From: Halobaculum gomorrense
Lineage (GTDB): Archaea; Halobacteriota; Halobacteria; Halobacteriales; Haloferacaceae
Length of the DNA: 64,000 bases
NCBI RefSeq assembly: GCF_900129775.1
Contig: NZ_FQWV01000006.1
Location: 62,001-126,000 of the forward strand
Reading direction: 5' to 3'
The notes beneath the pieces were generated by a model. It worked only from the letters and a program-made list of their open reading frames with translations, was not told where the DNA came from and searched no databases. Each line of letters opens with the position of its first letter. The first letter of the stretch is position 1. Below are positions 14,415 to 17,915 of the stretch, piece by piece. The position numbers and the translations under genes are program-made.

Positions 14415-15407
14415 ATGGTCACGTTCCTCGCAGGCGGCACCGGCACGCCGAAGCTCCTCGACGGTGCCGCCGACGTCTTCGCCCCCGAGTCCACCACCGT
14501 CGTCGGCAACACCGGTGACGACGTGGAGATCGGCGGCCACCTCGTCTGTCCCGACGTGGACACCGTTCTCTTCTCCGCTGGCGGCGTCCTCGACCGCGAG
14601 CGGTGGTGGGGGATCGAAGACGACACGACCGAGACGCACGCGGAACTCGCGCGCCTCGCCGACGCCGCCGGACTCGATGACGGCCCGCGCTACCTCTCGG
14701 ACGAGGCGCAGACCGCCGGCCGCGATATCGCTCGCTGGCGCCGATTCTCCGGCGTCGCGGAGTTCATGGAGATCGGCGACCGTGACCGGGCGGTCCACGT
14801 CACCCGCACCTCGCTCATCGACGAAGGCCAGTCCCTCACCGAGGTGACCCGGACGCTCGCGGACGCCTTCGGCCTCGGCGTCGATCTGGTCCCGATGAGC
14901 GACGATCCCGTCGCCACGATCGTCCACACGGAGGACGGGTCGATGCACTTCCAGGAGTACTGGGTTGCGAACCGCGGCGGTCCCGCGGTCGAGGGCGTGG
15001 AGTTCCGCGGGAGCGACGCCGCGACCGCGACCGATGCGGTCCGCGCGGCGATGCGCGACGGGGTGATCATCGGTCCCTCGAACCCGGTCACGAGCATCGG
15101 GCCGATGCTCGCGCTCGACGGCGTCCGCGAGGCGCTGGCAGAGACGACCGTCGTCGCCGTCTCTCCCTTCGTCGAGGACCGGGTGTTCTCCGGCCCCGCT
15201 GCCGACCTCATGCGCGGCGTCGGCCGCGAGCCCAGCACCGCCGGCGTCGCCGAGTCCTACCCGTTCGCCGACGCGTTCGTGCTCGACGACGCGGACGGCA
15301 CCGACCTCGACCGACCGGTCGTCCGAACCGACACGCGGATCGACGGCGCGAACGACGCCGAGCGCGTCGCCGAAGCCTGTCGGGAGGCGCTGGAGGTGGT
15401 CGGGTGA
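14415..15407 (+). CDS. cofD: 2-phospho-L-lactate transferase CofD
   Basis: Joins the phospholactyl/phosphoenolpyruvyl-type guanylylated side chain to the deazaflavin Fo in coenzyme F420 synthesis. The 330-residue protein shows the CofD signatures [14 protein letters not shown] at the N-terminus, [13 protein letters not shown], and [15 protein letters not shown]. It is full length and starts the coupled run cofD / DUS-like / CitG-like / DUF447, each gene overlapping the next by GTGA, so all four are probably made together. Confidence 0.95.
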
Positions 15408-16252
15408 GCGACCGAGCAGTGACGCGGGCGGACGGGAGCCCGGCGACAGCGGCCGACCTCGGGGTCGACCCGCCGCTCGCGCTCGCGAGCCTGTCCGGGG
15501 AGTCGGACGCCGACTGGGCGCTCGCCGGCGCCCCGTCCGTCGGCGCGGCGTTCCTCGGCGGCATCGCACTCGACGCCGAGAGCCGCGCGGCCGTCCGGAG
15601 GATGGTCGCCGATCGGGATCGCGCGGAGTTCCGTCCGGCGGACCCGCTGGCGTGGATCGCCGAGCAGCTCGATGTGCTCGCCGAGTCGGACGCCGACCTC
15701 CGCGCCGGCGTGAACGTCCGCGCGACGAGCGCGGCGGCGATCCGCGAGGCGGCCGCGGTGTGCGCCGAGCGAAACGCGATCCTTGAGGTGAACGCCCACT
15801 GCCGGCAGGCGGAACTGTGTGCCGCCGGCTGCGGCGAGGCCCTCTTGGCCGACACCGACCGCCTCGCGACGTACGTCGCCGCGGCGGCGCGGGCGGGCGC
15901 CGACGTGAGCGTGAAGGTCCGGGCGGAAGTCGACGGCGTCGACCTCGCCGACACGGCTCGCGCGGTCGCCGACGCCGGTGCGGACGCCGTCCACGTGGAC
16001 GCGATGGACTCGGAGGCCGTCGTGGGAGCGGTCAAGGACGCGGCGCCCGAACTCGTCGTGATCGCGAACAACGGCGTCCGCGACCGAGAAACCGTCCGCG
16101 AGTACCTCGCGTCGGGCGCCGACGCGGTGAGCGTCGGCCGCCCGAGCGACGACGAGCGCGTGCTCCGGCGGGTGCGGGCGGCGGTCGACGAGTGGACTGC
16201 AGACGCGGCGGCCGCCGGGACCAATGCCGAACGGCCGGAGGTGCCGCGGTGA
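15404..16252 (+). CDS. DUS/nifR3-like TIM-barrel flavoprotein
   Basis: A 282-residue TIM-barrel protein related to tRNA-dihydrouridine synthases and dihydropyrimidine dehydrogenases in the archaeal MJ0144-like branch. Seen: [42 protein letters not shown] and VIANNGVRD followed by [11 protein letters not shown], the phosphate/FMN-binding end of the barrel. It lacks the RNA-binding C-terminal domain of true Dus enzymes, so tRNA modification is doubtful. The start is a GTG overlapping the cofD stop. The context points to a cofactor-linked role. Confidence 0.75.
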
Positions 16253-17142
16253 CCGACCGACCGAGCGCCGCGGACGCCTCGCGGCGCGGCCCCGCGGCCG
16301 ACGCCGAACTCGCCCTGCTGTTGGAGGTGGCGGGGACGCCGAAGCCCGGCAACGTCGACCGCGCGCGCGACCTCGCGGACCTCCGGTTCGAGCACTTCCT
16401 CGCGGGCGCGGTCGGCGCCCGGCCGGGGCTGGAGCGCGCGGCCGCGGGCGACCCGATCGGGGAGGCGTTCGAGACGGCCGTCGCCGGCATGAGCGAGCAG
16501 TCGGGCGGAAACACGCAGTTCGGCTGTCTTCTCCTCTTGACGCCGCTCGTGCGCGCGGCCGCCGCAGACGACCGTCCGCTCGCGCCGGAGGGCGTCGCCG
16601 CGGTCTGCGAGGCGACGACCGTCGCCGACGCCGCCGGCTTCTACCGCGCGTTCGAACACGTCGACGTGGCGGTCGCGGACCCGCCGGCGGGGATGGACGC
16701 GCTCGACGTGCGCCGCGGCGCCGACGCGGTGCCGGCGCTGCGCGAGCGCGAGGCGACGCTGTTCGACGTGATGGCGGAGTCGGCCGAACCGATCGACGAG
16801 CGGGGAACCCCCGGCGACGCGAACGCCCGCGAGTGGGTCGAGGGGTTCCCGCGGACGTTCCGCGCGGCCGAGGCGATCGCCCGCGACGACGGGCCGATCG
16901 CCGACCGCGCGGCCCGGGCGTTCCTCGACCTGCTCGCAGAGGCCGACGACACGCTCGTGCGGACGCAACACGGCCCCGAAGTCGCCCGCGAAGTCCGCGA
17001 GCGCGCGGCGGAGATTGACTCGCTCGACGAGGCGGCAGCATGGGCCGACGAACTGGCCGAGCGCGGGGTCAACCCCGGAACCACGGCCGACATCACCGCC
17101 GCGGCGCTGTTCGTCGCGCTCGAACGCGGGGTGGCGGTGTGA
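16249..17142 (+). CDS. Triphosphoribosyl-dephospho-CoA synthase (CitG/MdcB)-like protein
   Basis: A 297-residue member of the CitG/MdcB family. Seen: AGTPKPGNVDRARD, the conserved SGGNTQFGCLLLLTPL stretch, and the C-terminal RGVNPGTTADITAAALFV. Bacterial members make the prosthetic-group precursor of citrate or malonate lyase, but no lyase subunits are here; archaeal members usually sit with cofactor genes instead. Relatives are also found in methylotroph and methanogen clusters linked to tetrahydromethanopterin. GTG start overlaps the previous stop. Biochemical role in haloarchaea is unknown. Confidence 0.82.
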   Translation: MTDRPSAADASRRGPAADAELALLLEVAGTPKPGNVDRARDLADLRFEHFLAGAVGARPGLERAAAGDPIGEAFETAVAGMSEQSGGNTQFGCLLLLTPLVRAAAADDRPLAPEGVAAVCEATTVADAAGFYRAFEHVDVAVADPPAGMDALDVRRGADAVPALREREATLFDVMAESAEPIDERGTPGDANAREWVEGFPRTFRAAEAIARDDGPIADRAARAFLDLLAEADDTLVRTQHGPEVAREVRERAAEIDSLDEAAAWADELAERGVNPGTTADITAAALFVALERGVAV

Positions 17143-17915
17143 GCGACCCCGACCGCGACGCAGTCGACGGGGGCGACACCTCCTTCGGGGGCGACGGCGA
17201 CGGTGACGCGGCGACCGACTGGCCCGTCGACCTCGCGGGCGTCACCGAGTCGGTGGTCGCGACGCTCGGCCCGAACGGGCTGTGGAACCTCGCCGCGCTC
17301 GGTCTCCACGCTCCCGAGCACGACAGTCGACCCGCCGACGCGCCGGTGCGGGCGCGGACGTGGGGGCGCACGCGAACCCGACGGAACTTCGCCGAACGCG
17401 GCGGCGGCGTCGTCCAGTTCGTCGCCGACCCGCGGGACTTCGTCGACGCCGCGGCGACGGTCCGCGAGGAGCCGGAGCCGATGCTCGACTCGGCGGACGC
17501 GTGGGCGGAGGTGACCGCCGAGCGCGTCAACGCCGGCGAGCGCGGCGGCACCGAGTGGGTCGACTGGCACCTACACGTGAGCGACGCCGCCGTCGAGCGG
17601 ACGGCGGTGCGGACGATCAACCGCGGGTTCGGCGCCGTGATCGACGCCACGGTCGCCGCCTCTCGGGTGGACGTGCCGGCGTACGACACCGAGGCGTTGC
17701 TCGCGCGGCTGCGGTACTTCGCGGACGTGGTCGACCGCTGCGGCGGCCCCGCCGAGCGCGAGGCGTTCCAGCGACTGCGCGAGGCGAGCGCGTGGGAGGA
17801 CCGGGACGGGGACGGCGATAGCAACGGCGACGGCGGTGGGGACAGCGACGGCGATGGGGACAGCGACGGCAACGGGGACGGGGGCAAGGACGGCGACGCG
17901 CGCGTCGGCGACTAG
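17139..17915 (+). CDS. DUF447 family protein
   Basis: A 258-residue protein whose residues about 25-220 match the DUF447 fold (flavin-reductase-like split barrel), with VESVVATLGPNGLWNLAALG-type sequence near residues 30-50 and WVDWHLHVSDAAVERTAVRTINRG in the middle. DUF447 is found in archaea and methylotrophs and has no established reaction. The last ~35 residues are a Gly/Asp/Ser/Asn low-complexity tail. It closes the cofD operon, starting at a GTG that overlaps the previous stop. Confidence 0.8.
   Translation: MSDPDRDAVDGGDTSFGGDGDGDAATDWPVDLAGVTESVVATLGPNGLWNLAALGLHAPEHDSRPADAPVRARTWGRTRTRRNFAERGGGVVQFVADPRDFVDAAATVREEPEPMLDSADAWAEVTAERVNAGERGGTEWVDWHLHVSDAAVERTAVRTINRGFGAVIDATVAASRVDVPAYDTEALLARLRYFADVVDRCGGPAEREAFQRLREASAWEDRDGDGDSNGDGGGDSDGDGDSDGNGDGGKDGDARVGD
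17806..17902 (+). repeat. GAC/GGC-rich repeat encoding a DG-rich tail
   Basis: Degenerate tandem units of the type ggggacagcgacggc encode DGDGDSNGDG-like tail residues at the end of the DUF447 protein. Third positions vary more than the first two, so it is translated sequence, not a structural DNA repeat. Confidence 0.7.

Follow-up and report, generated by a model that had tools for sequence, protein, structure and literature searches.

The locus analysed here raises the question of whether four overlapping genes of Halobaculum gomorrense, headed by cofD, serve a single cofactor pathway. The genes lie within a window of 64,000 nucleotides, the whole stretch of DNA under analysis, and are arranged as follows:

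14415..15407, + strand: cofD (TIGR01819, 383 bits, cut-off 257.45), module 2
15404..16252, + strand: DusL, a Dus-like flavoprotein (PF01207, 8e-10; TIGR00736, 117.4 bits), module 2
16249..17142, + strand: CitG-like (triphosphoribosyl)transferase (PF01874, 1.4e-60), module 1
17139..17915, + strand: DUF447 protein (PF04289, 5.5e-17; PF20766, 9.4e-18), module 1
15404..15407, + strand: GTGA overlap of cofD and DusL
16249..16252, + strand: GTGA overlap of DusL and the CitG-like gene
17139..17142, + strand: GTGA overlap of the CitG-like gene and DUF447

All three junctions consist of a GTG start over a TGA stop, and the four frames are open with a single terminal stop. The preliminary description had reported a four-gene operon coupled by three GTGA overlaps, and this was borne out when open reading frames, frames and junctions were checked. 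Among 22 haloarchaea, adjacency was observed for cofD and DusL in 20/21 cases, for DusL and CitG in 16/18 and for CitG and DUF447 in 19/19. This conserved order indicates that the operon is more than a chance arrangement. The window genome holds one copy of cofD, and its assignment to CofD, the 2-phospho-L-lactate (or enolpyruvyl) transferase of F420 synthesis, is evidenced by a score exceeding the cut-off of the equivalog TIGR01819. The operon consists of two separable cofactor modules, cofD with DusL and CitG-like with DUF447, a division that is well supported by the genome comparisons.

GTDB genomes were scanned for DUF447 with an alignment query that included R. baltica 3B5M, which retrieved 80 loci, 77 archaeal and three bacterial. 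Every archaeal locus (77/77) has CitG as the immediate upstream neighbour of DUF447, and in every bacterial one (3/3) MptG comes immediately after DUF447. MptG is RFAP synthase, the first committed enzyme of methanopterin synthesis. The upstream genes of the bacterial loci encode PabA-like, class IV aminotransferase (PabC-like) and dihydropteroate-synthase-like (TIGR00284) proteins, which plausibly represent steps towards a pterin-aminobenzoate product; H4MPT-linked genes are known from Planctomycetes (PMC5020050). Two separate CitG-DUF447-MptG operons are present in one haloarchaeon (G199), tying module 1 to MptG within the haloarchaea. DUF447 is followed in Methanosarcina-type loci by a gene for dihydromethanopterin reductase (TIGR02700, 328 bits; for DmrX see PMC6193120), and one locus (L033) carries in a row cofD, DusL/methanogenesis marker 9, CitG, DUF447 and a DmrX-cluster gene. 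In the window genome MptG is unlinked to the operon (G000:C8:244693-245640), and the haloarchaeal CitG-DUF447 pair showed no adjoining gene for dihydromethanopterin reductase. CitG and DUF447 form module 1, and the pair is tied to MptG. For the CitG-like and DUF447 proteins, their neighbours, MptG and, in methanogens, dihydromethanopterin reductase, lend good support to one of the products considered in the preliminary description, a pterin/C1 carrier part. Among the papers available, a literature search returned none linking DUF447 or CitG with methanopterin and haloarchaea. The methylotroph Orf9 was considered as a DUF447 protein and dropped, Orf9 being an MfnF homologue (PMC8141765).

Whole-genome family searches covered 119 Halobacteriota, a haloarchaeal sample of 116 and named controls including Sulfolobus acidocaldarius. 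DUF447 was detected in 114 of the 119 genomes, CitG in 113, CofD in 115, MptG (TIGR00144) in 115 and the family of DusL, TIGR00736, in 80; all searched families were found in Haloferax volcanii, in which the mptG homologue is HVO_2628 and cofD is HVO_2479. Within the haloarchaeal sample, DUF447 and MptG each occurred in 113/116 genomes, and both were absent from the same three (G008, G049 and G104), each of them listed as 99% complete. CitG was likewise absent there, and cofD with DusL beside it was retained. An identical missing set of three is expected by chance with p ~ 4e-6; since G008 and G049 belong to one genus, the three genomes amount to about two loss events. The control S. acidocaldarius showed DUF447, CitG and MptG, no CofD and no match to TIGR00736, and a folate analogue combining folate and methanopterin features has been reported for Sulfolobales (PMC3261824).

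Two other genes were compared with the distribution of module 1. Mch was ruled out as a fourth member: all 116 haloarchaea have it, even the three that lack module 1, and it is therefore independent of the module. A second, stand-alone PF00809 dihydropteroate synthase was found in most of 23 haloarchaea tested; G104 has this synthase without the module, G116 has MptG without the synthase, and in G008 and G049 the second PF00809 match is a methyltetrahydrofolate:corrinoid methyltransferase-like gene.

The single pathway headed by cofD, as first proposed, is not supported. cofD lies within 6 kb in just 4/80 DUF447 loci, and S. acidocaldarius carries DUF447, CitG and MptG yet lacks CofD. The co-occurrence and neighbourhood analysis suggested with that proposal revealed that CitG and DUF447 are independent of cofD in most genomes, the outcome that had been named there as counting against it. 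Among the families that had been tied to cofD, it is DusL that keeps its place next to cofD in haloarchaea.

The haloarchaeal MptG (L053) scored 170 of 328 bits against the equivalog NF040726, below its cut-off, and lies above that of TIGR00144. The bacterial MptGs of the DUF447 loci (176 and 87 bits) also remained under the NF040726 cut-off. In the alignment, the haloarchaeal proteins keep the glycine-rich loop and an Arg equated with R26, a residue involved in aminobenzoate binding, but have Asn or Thr in place of D19. A D19N variant of the Methanothermobacter enzyme retains some activity (PMC6787355). In the MptG tree, the haloarchaeal proteins form one clade including that of G116, which suggests that mptG is old in the group; this clade shares a well-supported branch with bacterial and some divergent archaeal MptGs. 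The neighbours of haloarchaeal MptG were inspected by eye as possible pathway genes and set aside, being RecA-like ATPase, zinc-ribbon and TFS-like proteins of no obvious link.

In the CitG reaction ATP donates a triphosphoribosyl group, which becomes alpha-linked to the acceptor while adenine is released; the methanopterin arm is an aminophenyl-deoxyribitol bearing an alpha-linked ribose 5-phosphate. On this chemistry, alpha-ribosylation is the function that one would expect of a CitG-like partner of MptG. The alignment of CitG-like proteins displayed 14 invariant columns, E. coli CitG included, and the fold is all-helical and equals that of A. fulgidus 3h9p. The scores against TIGR03125 (18.6 of 272.3 bits) and TIGR03132 (25.6 of 282.35 bits) were both below the equivalog cut-offs. 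The lack of a lyase partner, pointed out earlier, holds for the operon, in which, as the region searched, no citrate-lyase or malonate-decarboxylase gene was detected. Relatives of DUF447 have been crystallised (2IML, 2NR4, 2PTF, 3B5M), and from these we take the family to bind FMN; the window protein has a private Asp/Gly-rich tail. A ribofuranose must be reduced to become a deoxyribitol, a step that would suit an FMN-type protein such as DUF447. Judged from these features, the CitG-like protein may catalyse an ATP-dependent alpha-ribosylation and DUF447 an FMN-dependent reduction, both acting on a methanopterin-type arylamine.

With regard to module 2, DusL lies beside cofD in 44/45 haloarchaea having DusL. 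The 22 haloarchaea examined first (20/21) include the three genomes without module 1; in 26 further haloarchaea DusL was present in 24, at a distance of no more than 200 bp from cofD in 24/24. The two genes are together in G147, G170, G175, G193 and G199, where DUF447 is located elsewhere. The exception is G116, putatively Halorutilus-like, in which DusL, CitG and DUF447 are together and cofD is elsewhere. Three genomes (G017, G121 and G183) have cofD and no DusL, indicating that DusL is dispensable, and CofD without DusL was also found in many ANME-like genomes. The methanogen form of DusL carries a fused methanogenesis marker 9 domain and has CitG, instead of cofD, as its neighbour; DusL is upstream of CitG in 47/77 archaeal DUF447 loci.

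Structure prediction of DusL yielded a TIM barrel of the Dus/DHOD/DPD class (pLDDT 92.6; residues ~25-267 of 282), and the best matches in a fold search were bacterial Dus. The C-terminal helical RNA-binding domain is absent from the model, in which a low-confidence tail is all that follows the barrel. These results agree with the initial assignment as a TIM-barrel Dus-like flavoprotein lacking an RNA-binding domain, with flavin binding predicted. In the alignment the active-site Cys is part of AHCRQ, a motif that does not vary and that reads NAHCRQ in haloarchaea. The TIGR00736 score of 117.4 bits did not reach the cut-off of 218.7, as for a distant relative of the MJ0144 family, and DusL reached none of the Dus equivalog cut-offs. 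With FMN as cofactor, enzymes of the Dus and DHOD types work on C=C bonds, and the fold and the Cys of DusL are compatible with a C=C reductase. Dehydro-F420-0 requires a reduction of this type, and DusL may be regarded as a candidate for the archaeal reductase that is missing at this step. A separate archaeal enzyme for this reaction (“CofX”) was predicted earlier (Bashiri 2019, PMC6450877). Later, 2-phospholactate was reinstated for the archaeal CofC/CofD pairs tested, a set that does not name haloarchaea (PMC8764529); where CofC and CofD use 2-phospholactate, the reductase is not needed. The haloarchaeal route has been stated to be unresolved in the context of F420 (PMC8305020).

The reading preferred here is that the operon serves a methanopterin-type arylamine arm (module 1) and F420 (module 2), with a probability of roughly 0.5 when the following reactions are included. 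MptG would join PRPP to an aminobenzoate-type acid, and DUF447, as an FMN-type protein, would reductively open the ribofuranose to a deoxyribitol. The CitG-like protein would transfer the alpha-linked (tri)phosphoribosyl group of ATP to the terminal hydroxyl with release of adenine, giving an alpha-ribosyl-5-phosphate as in methanopterin. Folate is the known C1 carrier of haloarchaea, which would keep module 1 for a second, methanopterin-like compound. In module 2, CofD would load Fo with a phospholactyl or phosphoenolpyruvyl group. DusL, as a Dus/DHOD-type C=C reductase with the acid Cys kept, would convert dehydro-F420-0 to F420-0. Whereas the operon, its division in two and the tie of module 1 to MptG are established, the individual reactions, the haloarchaeal product and the role of DusL are inferred. 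The data suggest that folate-using haloarchaea still make a methanopterin-like compound; folates have been reported from haloarchaea (PMC3261824, PMC8305020), and such a compound is not known from them. The complete proposal, in which most haloarchaea use MptG, CitG-like and DUF447 for a methanopterin-like pterin/arylamine cofactor beside folate and DusL is the missing dehydro-F420-0 reductase, is considered doubtful.

Other explanations were weighed against the two-module reading. The full translational coupling in the window and the close spacing in most haloarchaea would fit a role of all four genes in making or modifying F420, for example as a ribosylated or otherwise altered form, but this is very improbable, given CitG, DUF447 and MptG without CofD in S. 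acidocaldarius, the scarcity of cofD near DUF447 and the survival of cofD-DusL in the three haloarchaea that lost the other genes. It is conceivable, though rather unlikely, that haloarchaeal MptG, CitG and DUF447 were redirected to a product other than a pterin C1 carrier, such as a ribosyl-arylamine or a C-riboside. The divergence of haloarchaeal MptG with its unconserved D19, the presence of folate (PMC8305020) and Mch throughout, and the lack of an adjoining dihydromethanopterin reductase gene at the haloarchaeal pair would be consistent with such a change; the same genes nevertheless stand in methanopterin-type contexts in bacteria and methanogens, and the stand-alone second dihydropteroate synthase of most of the 23 haloarchaea could serve a second pterin.

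The place of DusL is also subject to other interpretations. DusL might belong to module 1 and catalyse another redox step in building the methanopterin-type arm, its adjacency to cofD being inherited order only; this is a tentative possibility, favoured by its position upstream of CitG in many archaeal loci and by the arrangement in G116. However, DusL remains beside cofD in the three genomes without MptG, CitG and DUF447, and the two genes are also together wherever module 1 has been relocated. That DusL is an RNA-modifying dihydrouridine synthase, present in a cofactor operon by happenstance, agrees with its PF01207 match and with bacterial Dus as best fold matches, and is still improbable, since the model lacks the RNA-binding domain, the score is under every Dus equivalog cut-off and the Cys lies in AHCRQ, not in the usual Dus motif.

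If the two-module reading is correct, a functioning portion of the methanopterin pathway persists in haloarchaea that use folate, contrary to the prevailing view that they lack methanopterin-specific enzymes (PMC8305020). The CitG-like and DUF447 families would gain concrete candidate steps in methanopterin synthesis, testable in the easily grown Haloferax volcanii. The cofD-DusL pair offers a named candidate for the archaeal F420 step left open by Bashiri et al. 2019 (PMC6450877).

Compared with known systems, the haloarchaeal operon resembles the Methanosarcina-type loci (DusL/mmp9-CitG-DUF447-DmrX) in having CitG and DUF447 adjacent in the same order, with DusL upstream of CitG. It differs in that the methanogenesis marker 9 domain is missing from its DusL, cofD precedes the other genes and there is no adjoining DmrX; the methanogen loci have as their own neighbour dihydromethanopterin reductase (TIGR02700), the known last enzyme, whereas haloarchaea use folate. 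The bacterial pabA/pabC or DHPS-like-DUF447-mptG loci (Rhodopirellula, a Gemmatimonadetes MAG and an Acidobacteria MAG) share the tie of DUF447 to MptG, and their MptGs group with the haloarchaeal ones; unlike the haloarchaeal loci, they have no CitG homologue recognised next to the pair and no cofD. With the triphosphoribosyl-dephospho-CoA synthases CitG and MdcB, the CitG-like protein has in common the Pfam family and the core residues of TPKPGxVDR and PGxxAD, which makes ATP-dependent (tri)phosphoribosyl transfer plausible, but it is far under the equivalog cut-offs, its operon has no acyl-lyase genes and its partners are MptG and DUF447. DusL shares the FMN-type TIM barrel and an active-site Cys with Dus and class 1 dihydroorotate dehydrogenases, from which it is distinguished by the missing RNA-binding domain, the AHCRQ motif and the operon with cofD. 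Finally, the C-terminal dehydro-F420-0 reductase of FbiB resembles DusL in the proposed reaction and FMN dependence, a functional analogy only, as FbiB has a nitroreductase fold and DusL a TIM barrel.

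A second, stand-alone dihydropteroate synthase was found in most of the 23 haloarchaea examined; G008 and G049 are among those without it. The Halobaculum gomorrense protein scored 157.8 bits, slightly under the DHPS cut-off of 162.6; two additional long PF00809 ORFs on contig C10 are probably FolP-FolC fusions. A methyltetrahydrofolate:corrinoid methyltransferase-like gene was detected in two of the three haloarchaea devoid of MptG (RFAP synthase), CitG and DUF447, again G008 and G049 (248 bits with NF005719, slightly under the cut-off of 259). Locus coordinates are as follows:

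L160:4904-6043 (C15 of Halobaculum gomorrense), stand-alone dihydropteroate synthase, DHPS score
L162:5235-6080 (G008), methyltransferase-like gene, NF005719
L164:4540-5394 (G049), methyltransferase-like gene, NF005719

In two haloarchaeal genera, mptG is immediately preceded by a GT28-like glycosyltransferase gene:

L053:4463-5731, directly upstream of mptG
L056:4129, directly upstream of mptG

Glycosylated folates are known in other archaea, which this gene order may recall. The haloarchaeon G199 carries the CitG-DUF447-MptG operon twice, as paralogous copies (L152 and L153). The window DUF447 is closed by an Asp/Gly-rich repeat tail of ~35 residues (17803-17912), absent from all 21 aligned relatives.

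The methanogen relatives of DusL, the Dus-like flavoprotein encoded beside cofD, have the methanogenesis marker 9 domain, TIGR03277, at their C-terminus:

L033:5574-6677
L034:5305-6444
L040:4427-5377

In contrast, the haloarchaeal and A. fulgidus DusL proteins are devoid of this domain.
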